IMG/VR virus record: IMGVR_UViG_3300017756_000082 | Location: 1-26,994 of that record | Source of the DNA: a virus | Direction: 5' to 3' (one strand) | Length of the DNA stretch: 26,994 nucleotides | In this document: in pieces, positions 2,109-26,494 of the stretch | Numbering within the stretch: the stretch's first letter is position 1 | How the letters are laid out: every line of letters starts with the position of its first letter | The notes under the pieces: generated by a model | Told to the model about the DNA's origin: nothing | Databases searched by the model: none | Seen by the model: the letters and a program-made list of their open reading frames with translations, nothing else | Translations under genes and position numbers: made by a program

Positions 2109-5100
2109 TTAGTCCCCTTCTATTGTGTAAAGTCTGTTCTCGTCTCTCACTGTGTGGAGTCGTTGTTCACTTTCTATGGTATTTATACGAGACTCGTTTG
2201 GTACCGTGTAAATCAAGTCAAATACTTGTAATTCAAAAGCAATCGCTGACAGACTTGTGTTGATGTTAAATGTGCTGTTAATGTCTACCGTTTTAACAGC
2301 GGTTGTGCTCATTGTCACTGTGCTTGTTAGAGCGCCAGAAACAAATCTTAATCTTGTGCCACTGACAGACATTGTTGCCTGTGTGTCAATTGATGTGACA
2401 CCCACAAGGTTTGCTGTTGCCTGTGTTGTGAATGACATCGCATCTGATATTGTTGCTGTGAAAGGTCTTATTCTTTCTATGCCAGCAGTCAGAGTGATGT
2501 TTGCTACACTTGAGGCAGTAATTTGTATTTCTGGAATCTTTGTAAATTCTATTGCTAATGTGGCTGTGCTGTCAAGTGTGGCTTCGTGTTCTACCAACAC
2601 ATTCGCCGTAATAGATAAAGTCACTTCACTGTTCAATGTTGCTACACCAAATCTTATTCTGTCGCCACTTGCTGACATTTGAGCCGTCACTGTTAATGCT
2701 TGTTCTGTGTCTCTTGTCAATTGTACAGTGATACCAAATGCTAAGGCATCTGTCAATTGTGCTTGACCACTTGCTGTGATGTGTGCTTGTGAACCAACTG
2801 TGACTGTGCTTGTGAGTGTGGCTTCACCAGAGGCATTTCTATCAGCATCTGCTGTCAATGTTGCTTGACTTGTGAGTGTTGCTTCACCAGGATGTATTCT
2901 TGTGACTTCAGCAGATACAGAAGCAACAGAATTTAATTGTGCTGAATTGTTTGTGGTAAAGTCAGCATCCACAGTCATCACAAATTGTGTGTCAGGTACT
3001 GTGATAAAGTCTGCTGTCTTAACAGCGGCAGTCAATTGTGTTGCTACCACATCAAACGTGGCACTGAATAATCTAAATTTGTCACCTTGTGCTGTAAGAT
3101 TGAATTGAGCAGACTGACTACTTTCAAATGTGGTTGTGAATCCACCATCGTCAACCATATCAGTTGAACCATCTGTGCCGTCAAAGTGTAATAATGCCAA
3201 TGTGTCTTCATCATTACCAAATGCTGAAGTTGCCAATGGTATGTCTGGGTGTGGGAATTCATCAGGATATCTTGCTGAATGTGATATTCTAACTTCGTCT
3301 ATCCAACCAGCATATCCACCTGTTGATATGCTACCCAACTGAATTCTAATACCAGATGCGTTTGCGGCTATCTGACTGGATGATGCGAACCAGGCTCCAT
3401 CACTATAACTTGCTCCACCCAATTTGATACCATTCAATCTTAAACGATGTAAGAATTGATTGCTGACTGCTTGGTGTCCTGTCAATGACACGTGATACCA
3501 ACCATTTGAATTAGGTGGTATGTTTCCGCCTGACGCAGTTATGGTTGTTGAACCAAATTTTGAACTGATTCCATCTCGTAGTACAAGACTCATTTCGTTG
3601 TTGGTTGGTGACCCACCTTGGGTTCCTCTGTGTTGTAAGGCAAAATTTATGTTCTGAACACGAGCAATCTCATATGTTTGTCCAAGATTTGTTGACACTG
3701 AATTGAAATATGTCCAGTCTGGTCTAAACCAAAATTCTATTGTGTATTCTGTGGTGCTGTTCCAATTCGCAGGTGCGTCAATGTAAGGTGCTGTGTTGTT
3801 GCTGTCTGTGGATCTTACAAGGTCATTATTGCCATCAAGGTATAAAGCAGTTGCGCCAAATTGTTGATATGTGTTGTCCAATTGAGCATTTCCCACTGCC
3901 TCAAACTCTATGCCTGGTCTTGCCGCATTCACTTTGACTGCCGCCATTGTGAACGCAGAATCTAAACCTGACGATCCTGAAACATTTGACACACTCGCAG
4001 ACTCTTCTGAGAATGTGATGCTCTGTGATTGGAATCCTGATTGGAACACAATACCAACATCTGCGTTGATTGTTGCCACAGCAACCAATTCACCTGAATC
4101 AAGACCAAATCTTAATCTTGCGCCATCTATACTTGCTGTGAATGTTGCTGAAGGTGTGCTTGTTATATCTGTAATTTTTTCTGCTGTGATAGAAGCAGTT
4201 GCCTGCGCCACCATTGTGCTTAAACCTGCCAATATGGCATTTACATTCATTGTGGGTGAGAAAGCATCTGTTAGAGTGGCATTGAATTGTTGTAGATTGC
4301 CAATTACAGGTGTGAATGTTGCTGTTGATGTCAGTGTGATTGTTGTGTCTCTGAATCTGTCTGCTGACGCTGTTTTTGTGAATGCTGTATTGAATTGAGC
4401 ACCAAAAGGCACAATTCTTTCTATCAATTGTTGTTGTAATTGTGCTTGAACAGACAATGATGCTTCAAACGGTGTAATTGTTTCTATCTGTTGCTGTACG
4501 ACGCTAAATGACGCTGTAAACGACTCATTTATGAATCTTATTCTATCGCCTTGCGTTGTGTTTGTGAATTCAGTTTGTAGATTGGTTTGGTTTTCAGTTG
4601 TGACATTGACATCTGTTGTCAATGTTGCCACCGCATCTATCACAGCAGTCATATTTCTCAATGCTGAAACAGTCATTGAAGGAATAAAAGCATCAGTTAA
4701 TGATGCTGATACATCAAACACCTCTCCTATAATGGCAGATAGTTGAGCCTGTGTGTTCAATGCGACACCAACACCAACAAATTTTTGTATGTTGGCAGTC
4801 AATGACGCTGTTGATTCTAACGACATTCCTAATTCATCTCTAATCCTACTTGTATTGGCAGTAAGAGCAAATGCTGAATTGAATGTGCCACCAAATCCTC
4901 TAATTGCTTTGATTGTGACTGTCAATGTAATTGCGGCATTGGCAGAGACAACAAAACCAGTAATTTTGTCGCCTTGAGCAGTTAAAGAAGCAGTGGCACT
5001 CGCACTTGCTGATAAACTTTTAATTCTTGTTGTGGTTGCTGTTATGTTTGCCTGAACAGAAAGACTGGCTTCTGCTGGTGTGAATGATTCCACAGCGGCA

Positions 5101-5945
5101 GACAATACAAATCCTTGTGAAACAAAATAATTTTCGTCTATGTATCCACCTTCAAGATAAGGCGAATCCATTTGTATGTTTGCTTCTTTAATTTTGTCTG
5201 TGCTGGCTGTGAGTGTGAATTGTGCTGATGAACTGCTTTGTGCTCCACCTACTGAAGAGGTGTTGAAGTTTGAATTACCAACAAATATGGGTGTGCCTTG
5301 TAGACTTAAATTTACAATATTCTCAAGTGTTGCTTCATTGCCTGCGAACCTGCTGATTGTGAATTGTAATGTGGCAGTTGAATCCAATATGGCTGTGCTG
5401 TTCTTTGTGGCAACAGCAGTCACCGTAGGCGTAAATGCTCCTGTGATTGAAACTGATCCTTGTCTGATTGCTCCCACTGAAGATGTAGCACTGGCTTGAG
5501 ATGTAAATGCCGCTTGATAACTTTTTGTCAAAGTGCCTTGGGCAGTCTGTGTGACTGTTGAATCCATTGATGATGCTCCAGAATGTATTCTTGTCACTGT
5601 GCTGGCAAGTGTCAATGTGTTTGACAGTGAGGCATTAATCTGTAAAATTTTAATTACATCTGAACTCAATGTGAACTGTGTTGATACTGTTGCTGACAAT
5701 TGTTTAATTCTCGTACCTTGTGTGGTGTGTGTGAATGATGCTGACAGTGTGGCGGCACCTTCATGCGTTTGTCCAAATGTGATACTTCCTTCAAAATATC
5801 CATCTTCAAAATATCCTGGTATGAAATAATTTTCTGTCTGTGTACAACTTAGAGTGAAACTGCTTGTAAGAGAGGCTGATGCCTCAATAGGATCTCCTTC
5901 AAGGTAATTTGCTTCTATATAACCTGCTTCAAAATATCGTGACAT
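2109..5945 (-). CDS. Giant repeat fibre with embedded LamG domain
   Basis: This 1278-residue Ala/Ser/Thr-rich protein is built from many degenerate repeats of about 20 residues with the outline A-[ST]-[LFV]-x-[ST]-x-[AF]-x-[LF]-[ST]-x5-[RK]-I-[RK]. Each would give two short strands, so a beta-solenoid or elongated beta fibre is likely. A LamG lectin domain interrupts the array at about 695-925 (YTIEFWFRP, GWIDEVRISHSARYP, LALLHFDG). Tyrosine pentads (YFEAGYIEANYLEG, YFIPGYFEDGYFEG, YLEGGYIDENYF) occur near residues 4, 40 and 262. The last 28 residues are three nonapeptide repeats ESRINTIES, EQRLHTVRD, ENRLYTIEG. It is probably a long tail fibre or stalk. There is no cleavage signal. The next ATG begins one base after its stop. 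Confidence 0.75.
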   Translation of the reverse strand: MSRYFEAGYIEANYLEGDPIEASASLTSSFTLSCTQTENYFIPGYFEDGYFEGSITFGQTHEGAATLSASFTHTTQGTRIKQLSATVSTQFTLSSDVIKILQINASLSNTLTLASTVTRIHSGASSMDSTVTQTAQGTLTKSYQAAFTSQASATSSVGAIRQGSVSITGAFTPTVTAVATKNSTAILDSTATLQFTISRFAGNEATLENIVNLSLQGTPIFVGNSNFNTSSVGGAQSSSSAQFTLTASTDKIKEANIQMDSPYLEGGYIDENYFVSQGFVLSAAVESFTPAEASLSVQANITATTTRIKSLSASASATASLTAQGDKITGFVVSANAAITLTVTIKAIRGFGGTFNSAFALTANTSRIRDELGMSLESTASLTANIQKFVGVGVALNTQAQLSAIIGEVFDVSASLTDAFIPSMTVSALRNMTAVIDAVATLTTDVNVTTENQTNLQTEFTNTTQGDRIRFINESFTASFSVVQQQIETITPFEASLSVQAQLQQQLIERIVPFGAQFNTAFTKTASADRFRDTTITLTSTATFTPVIGNLQQFNATLTDAFSPTMNVNAILAGLSTMVAQATASITAEKITDITSTPSATFTASIDGARLRFGLDSGELVAVATINADVGIVFQSGFQSQSITFSEESASVSNVSGSSGLDSAFTMAAVKVNAARPGIEFEAVGNAQLDNTYQQFGATALYLDGNNDLVRSTDSNNTAPYIDAPANWNSTTEYTIEFWFRPDWTYFNSVSTNLGQTYEIARVQNINFALQHRGTQGGSPTNNEMSLVLRDGISSKFGSTTITASGGNIPPNSNGWYHVSLTGHQAVSNQFLHRLRLNGIKLGGASYSDGAWFASSSQIAANASGIRIQLGSISTGGYAGWIDEVRISHSARYPDEFPHPDIPLATSAFGNDEDTLALLHFDGTDGSTDMVDDGGFTTTFESSQSAQFNLTAQGDKFRLFSATFDVVATQLTAAVKTADFITVPDTQFVMTVDADFTTNNSAQLNSVASVSAEVTRIHPGEATLTSQATLTADADRNASGEATLTSTVTVGSQAHITASGQAQLTDALAFGITVQLTRDTEQALTVTAQMSASGDRIRFGVATLNSEVTLSITANVLVEHEATLDSTATLAIEFTKIPEIQITASSVANITLTAGIERIRPFTATISDAMSFTTQATANLVGVTSIDTQATMSVSGTRLRFVSGALTSTVTMSTTAVKTVDINSTFNINTSLSAIAFELQVFDLIYTVPNESRINTIESEQRLHTVRDENRLYTIEGD

Positions 5946-5954
5946 AGTTTAATC

Positions 5955-7298
5955 CTAAGCATCATCAGAAGTTGTGGTAGCACCGTTTGAACCATCAAAG
6001 TGTAGCAATAGTTTCGTATAACCATCTGCCGTAAAAGCGGTGTTGGTTGGTGTGAATGCTTGGCTGTATCTTGCCACATTTGACTGTCTCCATTCGTCTA
6101 GGTAACCTTTAATTGAGTAAGGACCGCCTGTGAGATAAGAACCTATCTTGTAATCGTTGTTGGTAAAATTGGTGCTGTTGGAAACACTTATTTTTTCTGT
6201 GCCGTTCAAATAATATTTCAATGTGCCTGATTTTCTCACAAAAGCAATATGATACCATTGGTTTGTGCTCATGTCATGATTGCCTGACATAATTTGAGTA
6301 TTACCTGATCTCAGTTTGAATGTGCTTCCGCCAGGCTCAAAATATCCATTTAGTCTGCTGGAAACACCACTTCCTGTGTCAAAAAAGTATCTGCCATACT
6401 GACTGGTGAAGTCTGTTGGATAGTAGAAAAATTCTATGGTAAAATCGCCTGAACCTATGTTGAGAACTGTGTGATCAGGATCCACTGACCCTTCACCATC
6501 ATAATAAGCACTGGTGGCACCAAATTTGGCTTGTGTTGTGCTGAGTTCAGTATTACCGCCAAAAGTTGACACCGTGACTGCTGAATCAGTTCTTGGACCA
6601 TCATCCAATATCACTGTGCTGTTGTTGTCTCCATCACCGTGTAATAGTAGATGTGTGTGTTCGTCTGCCGTGAATGCTGATGAAGGCACTGTGAAATTTG
6701 ATGAATATCTTGCGTGACCTTTTGAAACTCTAAATTCATCCACGTATCCTTGACCATCGTATGCTGATGACAATGAATTTTGGAATATTAACATTTCGTC
6801 GTGTGCGTAATTGTTTGAGTCTGAATAGGTAGAACCTACCTGTGTGCCATCCACAAATAATCTTGTTGATGCTGACGCTCTGCTCAATGCTATGTGTTGC
6901 CAAGCATTGGCTTGTAGCACTGAACCTGAATCAATTGCTGTGGCGCTGTTCACATACAAAAAATATTTGTCTGTGGGGTTGGAATACAACAATATTTTTG
7001 CGCCGTTTGAACCACCACGCAAATCCACAGCATTATAATTTGCGGACAATGTTGGCATATACTGCCACCATTCAATAGTGAAGTCGCCTGTGCCAAAGTC
7101 TAGAGCGCCATTGTCTGTGACGTCAATGTAATCACCACTACCATCCATATAGATTGATGAACCACCAAATTTATTTTGTGTTGTTGAAATTTTTGTGTCG
7201 CCCTCAAGACCAATCTCCATTGAAGCAGATGTTCTTGGACCAAGTGAGGCCGCTGAGCCACTGTTTGCTAAAAAAGATAATCTACTTGCTCCTAGCAT
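5955..7298 (-). CDS. Two-domain LamG (concanavalin-like lectin) fibre protein
   Basis: The 447 residues hold two laminin-G/concanavalin A-like jelly rolls (about 45-225 and 260-440). Each shows the LamG-3 hallmarks: YxDGxGDYIDV, GDFTIEWW or GDFTIEFF, a WQHIALSR or WYHIAFVR strand, a LFVDGTQVGS or KYYLNGTEKI hairpin, GYVDEFRVSKGHARYS or GYLDEWRQSNVARYS, and a closing LLLHxDG. Such domains usually bind carbohydrates, so this is a candidate receptor-binding protein on the virion. The N-terminus (LGASRLSFLANSGSAASLGP) may attach it. The gene stops right after the second LLLHFDGSNG linker, as if a longer domain array were cut. A strong AGGAGG precedes the ATG. Confidence 0.85.
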   Translation of the reverse strand: MLGASRLSFLANSGSAASLGPRTSASMEIGLEGDTKISTTQNKFGGSSIYMDGSGDYIDVTDNGALDFGTGDFTIEWWQYMPTLSANYNAVDLRGGSNGAKILLYSNPTDKYFLYVNSATAIDSGSVLQANAWQHIALSRASASTRLFVDGTQVGSTYSDSNNYAHDEMLIFQNSLSSAYDGQGYVDEFRVSKGHARYSSNFTVPSSAFTADEHTHLLLHGDGDNNSTVILDDGPRTDSAVTVSTFGGNTELSTTQAKFGATSAYYDGEGSVDPDHTVLNIGSGDFTIEFFYYPTDFTSQYGRYFFDTGSGVSSRLNGYFEPGGSTFKLRSGNTQIMSGNHDMSTNQWYHIAFVRKSGTLKYYLNGTEKISVSNSTNFTNNDYKIGSYLTGGPYSIKGYLDEWRQSNVARYSQAFTPTNTAFTADGYTKLLLHFDGSNGATTTSDDA

Positions 7299-8398: not shown

Positions 8399-10834
8399 TT
8401 AAACGTGATATTCAACAACAACACCACCTGATATACCATTAGTTAGAGCAATAAATGTTCCGCCATTTGGTTGTGATTGTCCTCTTCCACCAGAACCCAT
8501 AGCAGTCTGAACGGTGCTTGTAGGCGTATTTGTTGCGGCTGAACCACCATATCCACCAAGGGCATAACCATATAAACCACCACCAGGTAAACCTACACTA
8601 TAATTTCCAGCATTGACACTGGCATTGCCGCCACCAGTACCAGCGCCTGCGGCACCTCCCCAAACTGCTGGTCCTGACACACCGCTACCTGACCAAAAAC
8701 CTGCTCCTCCAGAAAAACCATTTGGTGAATTTGCGCCATTGGTTGACGTGCTACCATCACTTGTGCCACCATTGGTGCCTGCTGAAACTTGAATGTTTGA
8801 ACCATTGTTAGCATACAAAATTCTTGTGTATGCCTGACTGCTTGAAGCAGAATATACTGAAACTGGATATTGTCCAAGATTTACAGATAAATTGGTATGT
8901 TGTACAACTTCGCCACCACTACCGCCACCACCTGCTGAACCTGTTCCAGAAGTTGAGCCACCATTACCACCTGAACCAATCACTGTGACATCCATTCTCA
9001 TATATAATCTATTTTCAACAGTTGGATAAATGGTTCCGCTATTTTGTAGTGTGGTTGTTGAATTGGCAAGGTTGTTCACAATGCTTCCTGTTCTGTTTAA
9101 ATTAAATGTTTGATTGGCAATAGTATTACTATTTTTTGTTAATGTCACTGTGACTGTGGTGTCATTGCCATTATCTTGTAAAGGAAAATATTTTAATTGA
9201 CTGATGATAGTGTTTAGAGTGCTTTTATATGATGTATAACTGATAGGATTTGTTAGACTGACATTATTTGTGTCTTGTGATATGTATCCCATTCCAGCAT
9301 TGAACGTAATTGTGTATTGTGCGTTTGGATCTGTGTCAAAATCACTTATATATGGTGTATTTGATGAAAAAATTAAATTGGCTTGATTTGTAGCATAAGT
9401 TCTTGTGATATTCATATCTGTCAAATCAATGTCTAAAGGTGAACCTAAATTACAAGTTAAGCCTTTTGCCTGCGTGTTACCTTGCGGTGTTGTCACACTA
9501 AAATTTAGTGTAAAGTTTTGATCATAATCAACACCTGGTTCAAAAGATACAGCGTCAAGAGATGTGTTAATTTGTGTGAGTGTACCACTGAATGTTAAAA
9601 CTTTGGTGCTTGAATTAAATGTTGCGTTTGTGGCAGACATTGTGTCAACAGCATTAGTGTCTGAAGGTGTAATTGTAAGTGAATATGTTCCTGTCCCACC
9701 TTGATTAACATAAATGTAATCAGAAATTTTAGGCACATCTGCTAAAGTTGTTGATGTGTCTTCAACGTAATTGAATGTATCTGTCGCATCTAATAGATAT
9801 GCGTTGTTTGGCGTAACCGCGATAACCGTTGCTTGTAAAGTGAAATTGCTTTGTTGTGCTGATTCACCATATTCATAATTAGGATTTTTAGTAATTGTAC
9901 AACTTAAAGTGGCAGATGAAACTTTTAATGATGTCAAATCAGGGAAGTCTATAGTACCTGTTGTCCATCTGTGTTCTTGATCATTGTCAAATCCAAATGC
10001 GGCTAATCCATCCCTGTCTTTCACAGCGCCTTCCTCTATCAACACATAATAAGTGGTATTGGCATCTATCAAACCTGTTGTGACCAATGTGATCTGATTG
10101 CCTGAAATTGTAAGGTTAAGGTCCGTTGAGTCTGATGGATCATATGTTCTTAACAAACTGTCTTCAATACCTGTGTTTGCTGTGCCACCCATATTAGAAT
10201 GAGAAGTACAATAGTAAAATAAATCTGGACCGCTCTGAGGCACAACGAAAGTTAAAGTGTTGGCACTGGTGTTTCTTGTGACACCAGTTGTATATTCTGT
10301 GCCGCCACCGTGTGTGCCGTCTGCTGTGGTTGATAGAGCAAATGGATGTGCTGATGGATATGTGAAAACATAAGTGTTGGTTTCATACAAGTTCAATGTG
10401 GCTTGTTGTACACCATCCACATAAAAATATCCTCCTGATGCTGTCACTGTCACATTTATTGTTTGTGGTGATGCTGTGTCTTTAAACAATTTGTATGTGC
10501 CACTGGTGCCTGCCAATATTTGTCTGTCGTAGGTGTATCTTATGAATGTGTTGTTGATCACATTGGTGCCACCATCTGTTGGTTCATCCACTTGAATCTG
10601 TGGTCCTGTTGAATTGGTTGTGAATGTGCCCAAACCAGTCACAGCAGGATTTGGAAATTTTGAACCTTCTGTTTCTTTTACAAAATCCTGTTCTAAATCA
10701 ATTGTGTAGGTTGTGCCTGCGGCAAATGTTATGCCTGCGGCAAATGTGTCAATGACGACTTTTTTTCTGTCATTTTTAAGTTGACATTTAGCAATCACTT
10801 CCAGTGTTGCTGGGTACATATAAACTGTTGCCAT
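8399..10834 (-). CDS. Tail fibre/adhesin with cupredoxin-like domain and glycine-rich tip
   Basis: This 811-residue protein is probably displayed at the tail tip. It begins with SbsA-like Ig modules (20-75 and about 240-295, the latter with YYVLIEEGAVKDRDG). Between them lies a cupredoxin-like domain (about 127-220) with the motif pattern of blue copper proteins: H163 in HPFALS, DGTHGGGTEYTTGV, then YYC209TSH212SNM215GG, giving His, Cys, His and Met. A middle beta section is cadherin-like. The last ~190 residues are glycine-rich (for example GGGGSGGEVV, GGGLYGYALGGYGG), like polyglycine-II receptor-binding tips of T-even adhesins. It overlaps the J-like gene by one base. Whether copper is bound is unknown. 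Confidence 0.75.
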   Translation of the reverse strand: MATVYMYPATLEVIAKCQLKNDRKKVVIDTFAAGITFAAGTTYTIDLEQDFVKETEGSKFPNPAVTGLGTFTTNSTGPQIQVDEPTDGGTNVINNTFIRYTYDRQILAGTSGTYKLFKDTASPQTINVTVTASGGYFYVDGVQQATLNLYETNTYVFTYPSAHPFALSTTADGTHGGGTEYTTGVTRNTSANTLTFVVPQSGPDLFYYCTSHSNMGGTANTGIEDSLLRTYDPSDSTDLNLTISGNQITLVTTGLIDANTTYYVLIEEGAVKDRDGLAAFGFDNDQEHRWTTGTIDFPDLTSLKVSSATLSCTITKNPNYEYGESAQQSNFTLQATVIAVTPNNAYLLDATDTFNYVEDTSTTLADVPKISDYIYVNQGGTGTYSLTITPSDTNAVDTMSATNATFNSSTKVLTFSGTLTQINTSLDAVSFEPGVDYDQNFTLNFSVTTPQGNTQAKGLTCNLGSPLDIDLTDMNITRTYATNQANLIFSSNTPYISDFDTDPNAQYTITFNAGMGYISQDTNNVSLTNPISYTSYKSTLNTIISQLKYFPLQDNGNDTTVTVTLTKNSNTIANQTFNLNRTGSIVNNLANSTTTLQNSGTIYPTVENRLYMRMDVTVIGSGGNGGSTSGTGSAGGGGSGGEVVQHTNLSVNLGQYPVSVYSASSSQAYTRILYANNGSNIQVSAGTNGGTSDGSTSTNGANSPNGFSGGAGFWSGSGVSGPAVWGGAAGAGTGGGNASVNAGNYSVGLPGGGLYGYALGGYGGSAATNTPTSTVQTAMGSGGRGQSQPNGGTFIALTNGISGGVVVEYHV

Positions 10835-13800
10835 TATTCGTAGTCCTCTATGGTTACTGCTGATGATGAAGCAGGTATGGTTGCGTGAACATTGCCAAGG
10901 TTATCTTTAATAACAGCATTGCCTGAACCTTTTTCAATTGGTCTGTCAAATATTTGTACAATTCCTGTGTCGCTTGGTGAACCATTTGTTATTGTGGCTG
11001 TTGGTGCTTCAGGTCCTGGATCTGTCACAAACGTGGCAGTGGTTGTGTCTGAGATGCCAGCAAATTGTAAATCAGGACAACCAGCATTCACAATGGCTCC
11101 TGCTGATATGTTCACATAATAAGTGGTGTTGGTATCCAAATCCACTGTGGGATTCAAATACACCGTGTCTGTTTCAATCCAGAACAATTCATTGATCTGA
11201 TTGTCTGTGAATGTGTGTGCCACATTGAACACTTGATGCGTCACAGCACCAGTCTTGTAGAGTGTGATGGTGCCTGATGTGCCAAATGCTATTGAATCAC
11301 TAAATTTTAATCTTATTTCAGTCTGTGTGTCTACGTCTGAAAATTCATTTAATGAATTGTTGGCACTGGTCACAATTAATATTACAAAATCCATACTTGC
11401 CACAGTGAAGTTTAGATTGTCTGTTTTGATGATGGCATTGTTGCCCAATGAATGATTACAGTCTGTGATATCTTCCACAGCGAACACAATGTCTGCTGGT
11501 GCTATGATGTAATGGTCTCTGCCCAATACTGCTTTGCTTTCTATGTTGCTGTATATCACTTGTTTTTTATTTAAAGGATTCACAACACCTGTGGATGCCG
11601 CAATGGTTCCTTCTGACAGGTCCGTTAGAGCATTCATTATGGATATTGTGCCTGAACCAACTTTTACTTCTTTGTCAAATTGTAGTATCAACACACTTTC
11701 AGGACAAATTGTGCCTGTGTCTTGTGTGATTGTGAATGTTTTGTCTGTGGCTGTGTCCGCATTCATTGTGGCAATGAATGTGCTGATGTTGGTTATCTCC
11801 ACGTCCTTGTTTTTGGTACACAATGTTGGTGGATTGGTCGTGTTGGTATAAAATTTAAATGGTGTGGTTTCTGTAAATTGTTTGGCAAACAAAAAGGTGT
11901 CAATATTACACGCACCTGTGCTGGGTGTTGTTGGCGATGTGCCTGCGAATGAATATGCTGAGGTTGTGTAAGCAGGTGTATTGAAGTTCCAGGTTGTAGA
12001 ACCTATTTCTTCTCCCACTGCGTCATAGTCTGTGGCTGTGTCTGAATAATCTGTGCCACAATCTTCATATCTTTTGGTTTTGCCTGTTATTTCTGGTGAA
12101 ACAAAATCACAATATGTCACAACACCTTCATCCATTAAGATGTAGTAGTCTGTTTTTAAATCTCTGTTGCTGAATCCAATTGCCAATGCGTTGTTGTTAA
12201 GAGTAAAATCACTTGCGTTGCTTGTGGTGTTTTTAGTTTCAACCAATGTGCCATCACTTTTGTACAATTTAACATTTTTGTCTGAACCCAAACTTAAAGC
12301 GCCATAAAATACGTTGGCTGTGGAATCTGTTGCTGTTCTTCCATACAACACATAATAATCTCCTGTGATAGGTGCTTTGTCACTGGTATATTCGCCTGTT
12401 GAATCCAAATGTGTTGTTCTGTCTGGTGGATAACGATCCACAATGTTTAATTTTGGTGATACAGGTGCCACTGTGTATTTCTCAATTTCTGGAACCCAAG
12501 CAGATCCATTCCAAATCAAACCATCTCCTGCTTCTGGTGGTGTGCCTCCTGCTGAAAATAGATTGGTATTGACTGTGACTGTGACAGCGTCAGCACTCTG
12601 AGTGGCTGTGACAGCATTACCCACAAAATTAATTTCTGCTGGTGTTGATGTGAGTGTGGTACCTTCGTCTTTAACTGTGATATTGTTGCCTGCTCCAGGT
12701 AATGGGTCTGAACCTCCTATGTCAATTTTTCCGTTGGTAGCATCTTTGATTAGGTCCGCCATTCTTTGGAATAAAGACTTGTTGCCTGTCATACCTGAAA
12801 AGAAACCATCCAGTTTCAATAATAGTTCTACCAATGAAAGAGCACCCAACAGTCTGCCCAAAGTGCCACTGTTGACATCTGTGTTATCTCCTAAGGCATC
12901 TGGCACTTGTTCAGGTGTGTAGTCAACCAACCCTGATGGTGATGTGAAAGGTCCTGTGGTTGTTGAATTAACACCTCTTGTTTTAAAAAAATATTGATCA
13001 TTTGCCAATGCGTCATAATCCAATGTGACTGTGGTTCCTGATGAGAACACACCTCCGTTGGCAGGACGTTCTGTGGCAATCAATTGATATGATCTGTTTT
13101 CGTCTCCTGTGACACCTACATCTGTTGTTCTCCAGAATTCTATTGCTTCAACCAATCCTGTGGGTGATCCACAAGTGATTTCAACTCTTGGTCTGCTGTC
13201 ACTTTCAAATTTTGTAACCTGTAAATTGCTTGGCACACCAATTGAACCTATTGTGATGATTCCATTGGCATCTGTTCTTGTGAAACGATATAAATCTGCT
13301 GTTGAATACACATTGGCATCATATTCCAATGCCACCATCTTCATTGTTAAGGCACCATCTGCGTCTTGTGTTTCCTGTATGCTGATGATTCTAAATACTT
13401 TTGATGTGAAACCCAGTCTTGAATTGGTAACATCTATAAGGTCACCTGCTTTTAAATTGATGTATGTGAAATCTGTTTCAAAGTCTATCACAAGATTGAC
13501 TCTGCTCTGTTTTAATTCAATGATACCTAACAGTTGTGCCTGTATTGGTTCATTGATTACATCATATGTGAGTTGAAGTGTGTTGTTTTCTTCATTGCTG
13601 TTTCTGTCTGATGCTGGTATTTCAACTGTGACAAAGTCTGCTGTATCTCGTATGTCCCTGTTGGGGAACTCCACCTTGACTTTGTTGTAAAGGTCTCTTA
13701 AACCTGTTGAGGCAACATTTATATTGCCTATAATATTTGAATCTGTGAATGATGCTGTGGATGTGCCTGCTTGATTGATTGTGACACCCCATTTACCTTC

Positions 13801-14757
13801 GTGTATGTCATATTTCAAATAACTTGCGGCAGATGATGCCACTTTTTCTATGTTTTCCATAACTGGTCTGGCTGTGTCCAGCAAACCATTAATCTGATAT
13901 CTGTCTGCGAGTGTTTGTGCTCCAGTGCCTTGATCATCGTATGCCACACCAGTGTCTGAATATGTGTTCAATGCTGTGAGGCTGGTCTGATCAATGTAAT
14001 TCTCGTGTATGCCAGCACCGTATGTGGTGTTGGTCATATAATCAAACAATACATCACCAGGTTTCTTCATATCATTGTCAATTTCAAATTCAAAATTACC
14101 CAGTTGTGTCAAACCTTTATCTCTGTTGTAATTGATTTCAACCACAGCAAATAGTAAGTTTGTCATTTGGTGTGTTGTACTGCCCCAATTAGGCATTACA
14201 GAATAAGCATTGGGATAAGAAGCATTTGTATAACCATCTGGTATGCTTGGTGTGCCTGAACCTCCAGCATAACAATATATTTTTACCAATCCTGCCAATG
14301 ATGTGTCTATGCCTGTGGCACTGACACCAACTGATGCCACTGTGAATCCATCAGAAGCAAAATTAACTTTTTGTTTGTTAAGATACACATCTTTGAATGT
14401 GTATGTGCTACCTGATGAATCACTCAATTTGGTTGATGTTGTTTCAGACAGTGTTAGACAGAATGTCATTGTCTGATTGTTGTTGGTCATATGGGCATCT
14501 GTTATAATGCCTCCAAAAAAGGCTGAACCATATAGAACAGGTATCTTGTGATCTGTTGCTGGTGGTAGTTGTAGTCTTACACCTTCATCAATGTTGGCAA
14601 CTTCGTCAATGTCGTTGTCTTTGTTGACATTACGATTTAATTTAAAAACAAGATAGGCAAGTGCCGCTGTGGTAACCAATGTGCTGGCAGTTTGATTGCC
14701 TTTAAAAAATGTTTTTGCTTTGTTGCCAAAGTTTTTTATGCCATCAAGAAAACTCAT
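10834..14757 (-). CDS. J-like tail hub / central tip protein with Ig-like extension
   Basis: This 1307-residue protein is the host-facing hub. It has a hydrophobic N-terminal segment (24-38), then KIPVLYGSAFFGGIITDA (about 71-88) and GDVLFDYMTNTTYGAGI, both hallmarks of J-type tail hubs. NLKAGDLIDVTNSRLGF follows near 440, an FN3-like domain near 505-615, a helical spacer near 625-670, and the beta segment NITVKDEGTTLTSTPAEINF (about 695-714). The last 500 residues resemble SbsA/Big-type Ig repeats ending in YYVxxxxGAxxxxxC, for example YYVNISAGAIVNAGCPDLQF. The hub core would close the tail tube and trigger DNA release; the Ig modules would reach towards the cell surface. Start and stop both overlap their neighbours (TAATG). 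Confidence 0.85.
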   Translation of the reverse strand: MSFLDGIKNFGNKAKTFFKGNQTASTLVTTAALAYLVFKLNRNVNKDNDIDEVANIDEGVRLQLPPATDHKIPVLYGSAFFGGIITDAHMTNNNQTMTFCLTLSETTSTKLSDSSGSTYTFKDVYLNKQKVNFASDGFTVASVGVSATGIDTSLAGLVKIYCYAGGSGTPSIPDGYTNASYPNAYSVMPNWGSTTHQMTNLLFAVVEINYNRDKGLTQLGNFEFEIDNDMKKPGDVLFDYMTNTTYGAGIHENYIDQTSLTALNTYSDTGVAYDDQGTGAQTLADRYQINGLLDTARPVMENIEKVASSAASYLKYDIHEGKWGVTINQAGTSTASFTDSNIIGNINVASTGLRDLYNKVKVEFPNRDIRDTADFVTVEIPASDRNSNEENNTLQLTYDVINEPIQAQLLGIIELKQSRVNLVIDFETDFTYINLKAGDLIDVTNSRLGFTSKVFRIISIQETQDADGALTMKMVALEYDANVYSTADLYRFTRTDANGIITIGSIGVPSNLQVTKFESDSRPRVEITCGSPTGLVEAIEFWRTTDVGVTGDENRSYQLIATERPANGGVFSSGTTVTLDYDALANDQYFFKTRGVNSTTTGPFTSPSGLVDYTPEQVPDALGDNTDVNSGTLGRLLGALSLVELLLKLDGFFSGMTGNKSLFQRMADLIKDATNGKIDIGGSDPLPGAGNNITVKDEGTTLTSTPAEINFVGNAVTATQSADAVTVTVNTNLFSAGGTPPEAGDGLIWNGSAWVPEIEKYTVAPVSPKLNIVDRYPPDRTTHLDSTGEYTSDKAPITGDYYVLYGRTATDSTANVFYGALSLGSDKNVKLYKSDGTLVETKNTTSNASDFTLNNNALAIGFSNRDLKTDYYILMDEGVVTYCDFVSPEITGKTKRYEDCGTDYSDTATDYDAVGEEIGSTTWNFNTPAYTTSAYSFAGTSPTTPSTGACNIDTFLFAKQFTETTPFKFYTNTTNPPTLCTKNKDVEITNISTFIATMNADTATDKTFTITQDTGTICPESVLILQFDKEVKVGSGTISIMNALTDLSEGTIAASTGVVNPLNKKQVIYSNIESKAVLGRDHYIIAPADIVFAVEDITDCNHSLGNNAIIKTDNLNFTVASMDFVILIVTSANNSLNEFSDVDTQTEIRLKFSDSIAFGTSGTITLYKTGAVTHQVFNVAHTFTDNQINELFWIETDTVYLNPTVDLDTNTTYYVNISAGAIVNAGCPDLQFAGISDTTTATFVTDPGPEAPTATITNGSPSDTGIVQIFDRPIEKGSGNAVIKDNLGNVHATIPASSSAVTIEDYE

Positions 14758-25533: not shown

Positions 25534-25611
25534 CTATTTTAGATTGTTTTTGAGATATGCGGCGTATGCCAATAGAAATATGATTATACAATAAAAAATA
25601 AATCCAGTCAT
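25534..25611 (-). CDS. Putative 25-aa single-span membrane microprotein
   Basis: A short frame starts at an ATG that overlaps the stop of the ADP-ribosyltransferase-like gene (TTTTAATGA), the same stop/start arrangement used by its neighbours. It encodes 25 residues: MTG, then a hydrophobic run (FIFYCIIIFLLAYAAYL) long enough to cross a membrane once, then the basic tail KNNLK. By the positive-inside rule the C-terminus would face the cytoplasm. It has no ribosome site of its own beyond coupling. It might be a small holin/antiholin-type or regulatory peptide, but nothing shows which. Chance occurrence in AT-rich DNA remains possible. Confidence 0.4.
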   Translation of the reverse strand: MTGFIFYCIIIFLLAYAAYLKNNLK

Positions 25612-26075
25612 TAAAATTTTACTACTCCTCTGGCTTCAGGATCTATCTTAAATTGTGTTGCCGCTTCTTCTGTGAACGTAAATCCTGTTGTCTTACCATC
25701 TCTATATATGCTTATACCTTCTGGCAAGTTAAGAAAAAAGGGTGCTGATCCAACTAATATTTCATCATCTTTTACAGATATTGGTTTAGAATAACACCAA
25801 GTCTTATCACCAAAACTTAACATTGGACTGATATGCTTACTGCCGTAAGTTAGATATTTCTTTTTCAACTTGTAAGATGGTATTTTATAAACTACAATCA
25901 CATCACCTTGTTCTTGTGCGTGTTTAATGAATGTCACCCTACGGGCATATGTATCATTGCCTGACAAAAATATTTTATCTGTATATGTGTTGCCTGATTG
26001 CGGTTGTATCGCACCTGTTTTTTGTATTTCTTCATAACCTTTTTGTGTGGTGCCGTGATAGAAAAATCTTGGCAT
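25611..26075 (-). CDS. Predicted ADP-ribosyltransferase-fold protein (PARP/KptA/DarT-like)
   Basis: This 154-residue protein begins with the YHGTT motif (H7, G8, T9), typical of the first strand of PARP-, KptA- and DarT-type NAD-binding folds. A helix follows (GYEEIQKTGAI), then the strand DKIFLS and DTYARR at 41-46, where such proteins carry their second catalytic Tyr or helix. A late strand DDEILVG puts E105 where the catalytic Glu of H-Y-E enzymes usually sits. These matches are by eye. If active, it would move ADP-ribose from NAD to a protein or nucleic acid, as phage Alt/Mod enzymes do, or remove a 2'-phosphate from RNA. There is no signal peptide. The start overlaps the previous stop (TAATG) behind AGGAGG. 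It is translationally coupled to a 25-aa membrane ORF. Confidence 0.5.
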   Translation of the reverse strand: MPRFFYHGTTQKGYEEIQKTGAIQPQSGNTYTDKIFLSGNDTYARRVTFIKHAQEQGDVIVVYKIPSYKLKKKYLTYGSKHISPMLSFGDKTWCYSKPISVKDDEILVGSAPFFLNLPEGISIYRDGKTTGFTFTEEAATQFKIDPEARGVVKF

Positions 26076-26494
26076 TATGCCTCCTCCAATTCTTCATTAT
26101 AATCTTTTTCATAATAATACCATACAAAAAATTTAGTATTAAAAATTTCCCAAGCAACATCGTCTGGACAACCTTTTGCGTGAGTATCCATTAGCGGACA
26201 TCCTTCTTCGTGTTTGGTCTTACAAACTGCGTGTAGAACTTCGTGTAGCACAATCGCAACCAGGTCCTTCCGTTGTGTGGTGCTGGCAGGAATCCATATG
26301 TAATTGCCTCCCATACGAGCACTACCTAACACATTCTTACATCGCTTTACCGTGTCAGTGATTCTAACTTTGATGAAAGGCAAATCATAACCTCTATCAT
26401 ATCGTGCTTCATTGATAATGTTCATCACTTTGTCACGCAACAATTTGGTATCCTTGTTCATTGTTCTGTCTATGTGTTTTTTTGATTTCAACAT
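26075..26494 (-). CDS. Putative zinc metallopeptidase-like protein (HExxH)
   Basis: The protein has 139 residues and an HEVLH motif at 84-88 within a hydrophobic helix (VAIVLHEVLHAV), the hallmark of zincin-type metallopeptidases. The two histidines would bind zinc and the glutamate would activate water. Downstream C99, H105 and C109 (CPLMDTHAKGC) are candidates for a further zinc ligand or a small zinc knuckle. The size and simple layout resemble the small SprT/WLM-like predicted peptidases found in phages, but the substrate is unknown. There is no signal peptide, so it would act in the cytoplasm. The start is set by a TAATG overlap with the preceding gene and AGGAGG upstream; an inner Met at residue 12 is less likely. 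The protein ends in LEEA, and its stop overlaps the next ATG. It could also be an inactive fold relative. Confidence 0.6.
   Translation of the reverse strand: MLKSKKHIDRTMNKDTKLLRDKVMNIINEARYDRGYDLPFIKVRITDTVKRCKNVLGSARMGGNYIWIPASTTQRKDLVAIVLHEVLHAVCKTKHEEGCPLMDTHAKGCPDDVAWEIFNTKFFVWYYYEKDYNEELEEA

Follow-up and report, generated by a model that had tools for sequence, protein, structure and literature searches.

A cupredoxin-like module with a putative copper site, inserted in an Ig-like domain of a phage tail protein and recurring in tail proteins of marine phages

Blue copper domains are known as cellular electron carriers. In proteins of the plastocyanin/azurin type the first His ligand is usually followed by Asn or Ser, and copper sites typically pair an axial Met with a thiolate-His2 set. 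Members of this fold superfamily occur in marine phages, as cyanophages carry plastocyanin as a metabolic gene (petE). Ig-like domains in phage structural proteins are mobile beta-sandwich modules, exposed on the virion and shared by unrelated virion proteins. Metal in tail proteins has a precedent as well: the tail fibres of T4 are documented to contain iron, and the same was proposed for marine phages (PMC11705849; PMC12753301).

The DNA analysed here, called the window in what follows, is a virus record of 26,994 bases (IMGVR_UViG_3300017756_000082). Its minus strand carries a tailed-phage structural module (terminase, portal, tape measure, tail proteins and a J-like tail-tip protein). The gene of an 811-aa protein is located after the tape measure and J-like genes; its features, and its J-like neighbour, are:

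10834-14757, minus strand: J-like tail-tip protein of 1,307 aa, neighbour of the 811-aa ORF
8399..10834, minus strand: 811-aa tail protein, putative fibre or adhesin and carrier of the module, directly after the J-like tail-tip gene
10478..10612, minus strand: first half of a Big_5 domain, residues ~75-119 (joined flanks match PF13205)
10169..10477, minus strand: module with predicted cupredoxin fold, residues ~120-222, ~103 aa (AF2, Foldseek, PDB profile, module-less relatives)
10346..10348, minus strand: H163, first putative copper ligand (63/63 non-redundant copies; falls on the plastocyanin ligand His)
10208..10210, minus strand: C209, putative copper thiolate ligand (63/63 copies; PDB profile alignment)
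10199..10201, minus strand: H212, second putative His ligand (63/63 copies; PDB profile alignment)
10190..10192, minus strand: M215, putative axial ligand (61/63 copies, else Gln or His)
9959..10168, minus strand: second half of the Big_5 domain, residues ~223-292 (joined flanks; uninterrupted in relatives L190-L193)
8408..9001, minus strand: glycine-rich C-terminal region (Gly_rich_2-like), residues 612-809

Searches with the whole 811-aa protein against Pfam, NCBIfam and PHROGs gave no useful direct matches, and neither Pfam nor PHROGs names a cupredoxin-like module in it. Gly_rich_2 scores below threshold (17 versus 24.3 bits), while a relative (L190) exceeds the cut-off. The product of the upstream J-like gene matches host specificity protein J of phage P19250A (33% identity, 35% of its length). 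Judged by position in the tail module and by tail homology, the 811-aa product is a putative tail fibre or adhesin, with a putative role in host contact.

An earlier reading made from the sequence only had placed a blue-copper domain at 10100-10450, with H163, C209, H212 and M215 as ligands. The four residues are where that reading put them (HPFALS starts at residue 163 and YYCTSHSNMGG at 207), and the location held; its limits were slightly off, as module-less relatives set the module at 10169-10477. C209 is the sole Cys of the module, and the ligand loop has the amicyanin-like spacing C-x2-H-x2-M. The same reading took the EYTTGV and YFYVDG strands (starting at residues 180 and 136, respectively) as usual in cupredoxins. 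Both are kept in the family of phage modules, with no sign of their being general cupredoxin signatures; in the predicted structure EYTTGV is mostly loop.

We modelled the domain alone (residues 118-226, alignment of 67 rows) with AF2. The model is all-beta with nine strands (pLDDT 89, pTM 0.83); one strand ends in C209, H212 and M215 lie in the loop preceding the last strand and H163 sits just ahead of a strand, so that the ligands are at strand ends, compatible with converging at one end of the barrel. In a Foldseek search of the PDB, copper proteins made up 48 of the best 50 matches (rusticyanin, nitrite reductase, pseudoazurin, azurin with an amicyanin loop, AcoP, laccases, plastocyanin and amicyanin); rusticyanin was the best match (E 5.7e-4), with TM-scores moderate throughout, about 0.4-0.64. 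The Greek-key barrel expected by the sequence-only reading is thus what structure prediction returned. In a model of residues 1-300 the module kept its high confidence and the flanks were poorly modelled, residues 1-106 scoring mostly below 50.

The window copy has no match in Pfam and does not reach the gathering score of PF00127 (Copper-bind). A single-sequence search and a narrow profile (A1) yielded only spurious matches among PDB sequences, and hhalign found no match between A1 and azurins. A profile of 45 diverse module copies (A5), searched against all PDB sequences, had plastocyanins as its first 11 matches and copper proteins as 22 of 24, with modest E-values (best 0.0099). In the alignment to plastocyanin all four residues fall on the four copper ligands (H/H, C/C, H/H, M/M), which bears out the proposed kinship with cupredoxin families. 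The module profile also matched pseudoazurin/amicyanin-type proteins (hhalign probability 91.6%, E 8e-7). A domain from a Bacteroidetes genome (L189), matched by the phage profile (E 1.6e-7, 94.7%) as well as by PF00127 (1.4e-7), bridges the phage module family and the Copper-bind family. A distant relative, the tail spike of Prochlorococcus phage P-SSM2, passes the Pfam cut-off for PF00127, so some relatives may already carry automatic labels elsewhere.

The module resembles plastocyanin/azurin (PF00127), amicyanin, pseudoazurin and rusticyanin in its predicted fold and in having four ligands in the plastocyanin order; it has the C-x2-H-x2-M spacing in common with amicyanin, and the strand before the Cys closes with an aromatic residue and the Cys itself (YYYC or YYQC), as in the plastocyanin/azurin type. 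It differs from that family in having Pro rather than Asn or Ser after the first His (Pro164, 61/63 copies) and in a conserved segment rich in Gly and Thr (THGGG-EYTTGV) that separates this His from the Cys. Moreover, it has no apparent export signal, is part of a phage tail and, in the window copy, scores below the Pfam cut-off. From the cyanophage petE product, a free and exported electron carrier, it differs in being an integral part of tail and baseplate proteins. Because of that score and of the Pro, we class the module in the cupredoxin superfamily and not in the narrow PF00127 family. That it has the cupredoxin fold and belongs to this superfamily is hardly in doubt, given the model and profile matches.

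Conservation was assessed in 63 module copies less than 70% identical to each other, over 87 well-filled columns. Only H163, C209 and H212 are invariant, which makes them better conserved than the core aromatics of the module; P164 and M215 come next (both 61/63), and in the two copies lacking M215 its place is taken by Gln, as in stellacyanin, or His. Copies with such axial replacements include L026, L028 and L122, with Met changed to His (NHANHGG, NHSNHGG) or Gln (AHSNQGG); if copper is bound, these variants would alter the redox potential. We considered H175, in the THGGG loop, as a core ligand and rejected it, since divergent copies lack it and still have the full set of four. Module copies on genome contigs were retrieved by peptide patterns containing none of the four ligands, yet the domain copies listed among them retain the Cys and the following His; the conservation of the ligands is therefore not an artefact of motif searching.

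The baseplate wedge protein gp7 of cyanophages has one intact-looking and one degenerate module copy:

L196, gp7: aa 371-462 and 556-622
L203, gp7-like protein: aa 369-470 and 568-658

In the two second copies most ligands are lost, and therefore the fold can serve without metal; ligand decay is possible where another module copy is present. These copies bear on the idea that the module is a metal-free beta-sandwich, either a spacer or a carbohydrate-binding unit, in which the H/C/H/M set is kept for folding only. Ig-like tail modules are commonly viewed as sticky spacers, and six members of the module family match a carbohydrate-binding family, weakly (best E 0.0012). On the other hand, no column besides those of the three strongest ligands is invariant, which places them above the core aromatics, and Met is exchanged for Gln or His, which are ligand-type substitutions. 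We consider a metal-free module improbable; a cupredoxin fold together with a metal site under selection is, as a joint claim, very probable.

The surroundings of the module in the 811-aa protein point to an insertion. A query of the two flanks joined, with the module left out, found four viral relatives (L190-L193; 67-74% identical) that have no module. The relatives read ...ILAGNGNYELYK-VGSPDTLLRTYNPSDST... where the window has ...ILAGTSGTYKLFK-[~103 aa]-IEDSLLRTYDPSDST.... The joined flanks of the window match PF13205 (Big_5) at 2.1e-8 (35.3 bits versus a cut-off of 23.6), Big_5 goes undetected in the 811-aa protein with the module in place, and the uninterrupted relative L190 has Big_5 at 7.8e-7. 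These comparisons show the module to be a ~103-aa plug-in that interrupts a hairpin of Big_5, an Ig-like domain of bacterial type. The flanks being poorly modelled in context, their Ig-like assignment rests on Pfam and the module-less relatives. Direct repeats, as a mark of a mobile element, were absent at the insertion boundary. The module shares the mobile beta-sandwich character of Ig-like insertions in phages; here, in contrast, the inserted unit is cupredoxin-like with an intact putative metal site, and it lies within a Big_5 domain itself.

The J-like protein (10834-14757, minus strand) also has a Big_5 domain near its C-terminus, and its end resembles the start of another, the 811-aa gene beginning as though it completed an Ig-like domain started there. 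A domain split between the two proteins is unsupported, as the joined sequence has no Pfam match.

The four residues could, in principle, have come together by chance in some unrelated Ig-like domain: beta-sandwiches abound in tail proteins, and among 827 background ORFs the motif H-x25-60-C-x2-4-H-x2-4-M by itself turned up in 5. It arose, however, in only 10 of 20,000 shuffles of the 811-aa protein. Conservation across 63 divergent copies, the fold matches, plastocyanin as the top sequence relative and the sharp boundary at which the module interrupts a distinct Ig-like domain all stand against chance. The H/C/H/M motif of this protein is more than chance, and we regard the chance explanation, whose probability is next to nil, as refuted by the shuffles, the background ORFs, the conservation and the fold.

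The insertion within an Ig-like domain and a wide spread among marine phages go beyond the earlier reading. When the module was masked, 155 carrier ORFs fell into 33 groups with no shared sequence outside it; the module has therefore been shuffled among proteins. By the module alone, carriers match PHROGs families of baseplate wedge tail-fibre connectors, baseplate wedge proteins, tail fibres, tail spikes and virion structural proteins, and this, together with the position of the locus after the tape measure and J-like genes, agrees with the earlier placing of a cupredoxin-like domain in a phage tail protein. Searches of annotated phage records returned 201 records with a consensus query and 328 with a P-SCSP2-type query (the two sets overlap). 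Going by their names, almost all are cyanophages, pelagiphages, Methylophilales phages from the sea or marine virus records, and the labels of the carriers go no further than tail, structural or hypothetical protein.

Many T4-like cyanophages have the module as the last domain of gp9, their baseplate wedge tail-fibre connector; the N-terminus of this protein matches T4 gp9/10. All four ligands are kept there, and the annotations seen are silent on the module. The cyanophage gp9 carriers are:

L203 (S-RIM2): 967-1278
L205 (P-RSM4): gp9, 353-1585
L207-L211 and L214: further gp9 carriers

Cellular carriers were found as well. Those of SAR86 (L130, L138, L126) and of Poseidoniales (L098, L102) have a lipoprotein-like N-terminus, and in the latter the module caps a collagen-like stalk; both would be surface proteins, to judge from these features. 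A tree of 66 copies, though poorly resolved, requires at least three changes between virus and cell. At the sensitivities used, no relative of the module was found in plasmids and E. coli genomes. The module is mobile: in marine phages it sits in tail fibres, tail spikes and baseplate proteins that are otherwise unrelated.

This distribution bears on a redox role, in which the module would be an electron carrier or redox sensor at the host surface, for example sensing or draining outer-membrane electrons on contact. The well-studied blue copper proteins with the same ligand set do carry electrons; the module, however, is also embedded in multi-domain fibres of non-cyanobacterial phages and equally used at the ends of collagen-like stalks in archaea, and the window encodes no recognisable partner redox protein. 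Of the roles considered for a module in a tail, electron transfer is the least likely, and we hold the redox explanation to be very improbable.

We propose instead that the module is probably a metal-locked adhesion module. H163, C209, H212 and M215 would form a complete type 1 copper ligand set, a putative site binding one metal ion, most likely copper. The metal would close, or lock, the loop end of a rigid beta-sandwich projecting from the tail, and the locked module could act as a stiff adhesion or spacer unit in host-surface contact or in fibre stability in seawater. A direct part in host contact is a tentative suggestion.

Folding of phage tails takes place in the cytoplasm, a compartment with next to no free copper; for that reason the site may contain zinc or no metal at all, and copper uptake during or after lysis would be more plausible than co-translational loading, with zinc possibly in the site meanwhile. 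A related explanation keeps the cupredoxin site as real and assigns it zinc, iron or another metal acquired during cytoplasmic folding, with a purely structural role like that of the HxH iron in T4 fibre tips. Azurin produced in the bacterial cytoplasm can take up zinc, and the tail proteins fold there with no export signal; yet the axial Met, present in 61/63 copies, is not required by zinc, and a Met in that position, beside a thiolate and two His, is a combination typical of copper. Iron, for its part, is known in tail fibres of T4 and proposed for marine phages (PMC11705849; PMC12753301). We rate a non-copper metal as unlikely, and on balance lean towards copper being present in the virion.

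Iron in the fibre tips of T4 and, as proposed, of marine phages is the nearest functional parallel. The likeness to T4 gp37 and the Ferrojan horse hypothesis lies in a metal site, here putative, in a tail protein of marine phages; gp37 holds iron by HxH, whereas the module has a putative mononuclear Cys/His2/Met copper-type site. A more speculative extension, which we think doubtful, is that copper in phage tails (fibres and gp9), loaded in seawater or on lysis, acts in an ocean poor in copper as a Trojan horse or as an element of host recognition that depends on the metal, the virions being a pool of organically bound copper.

In the open-access literature searched, cupredoxin did not occur together with tail fiber, with virion structural or with Ig-like domain and phage, nor plastocyanin-like with tail fiber; the one match for cupredoxin and cyanophage concerns Borgs, judging by its title. 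The module in marine phage tails thus appears to be undescribed in that literature. As far as our tools show, the fold and the ligand set are old, and the tail location and the modular use are new within the searches made. Here a blue copper-type domain serves as an exchangeable part of virus tails, present in hundreds of ocean phages already sequenced. Should copper be bound, virions would be marine carriers of the metal, a complement to the iron of the Ferrojan horse hypothesis, and the working of the tail could hinge on a trace metal. Isolated carriers (Pelagibacter phage HTVC028P, S-TIM5, P-SSM2, P-SCSP2 and S-RIM2) put the question within experimental reach now; copper, zinc and an empty site are distinguishable on purified virions.

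Several other ORFs of the window deserve mention. A protein with two LamG (concanavalin-like) domains (5955-7298, minus strand), kin of baseplate wedge and structural proteins, is a candidate for a second host-contact protein. The ORF at 2109-5945 (minus strand) encodes a highly repetitive, Ser/Thr/Ala-rich protein of 1,278 aa with an apparent LamG-like stretch in the middle, and adjoins a Gp77-like fibre-tail adaptor (1772-2107; PF23148, 2e-19). Two minus-strand ORFs have no Pfam matches: judged by eye, that at 32-547 is HNH-endonuclease-like (DRINPHWEYSAHNCRW), and that at 25611-26075 starts with FYHGTT, recalling ADP-ribosyltransferases. The ORF at 26075-26494 (minus strand) has a sub-threshold match to SprT-like metalloproteases, with the motif HEVLH present.
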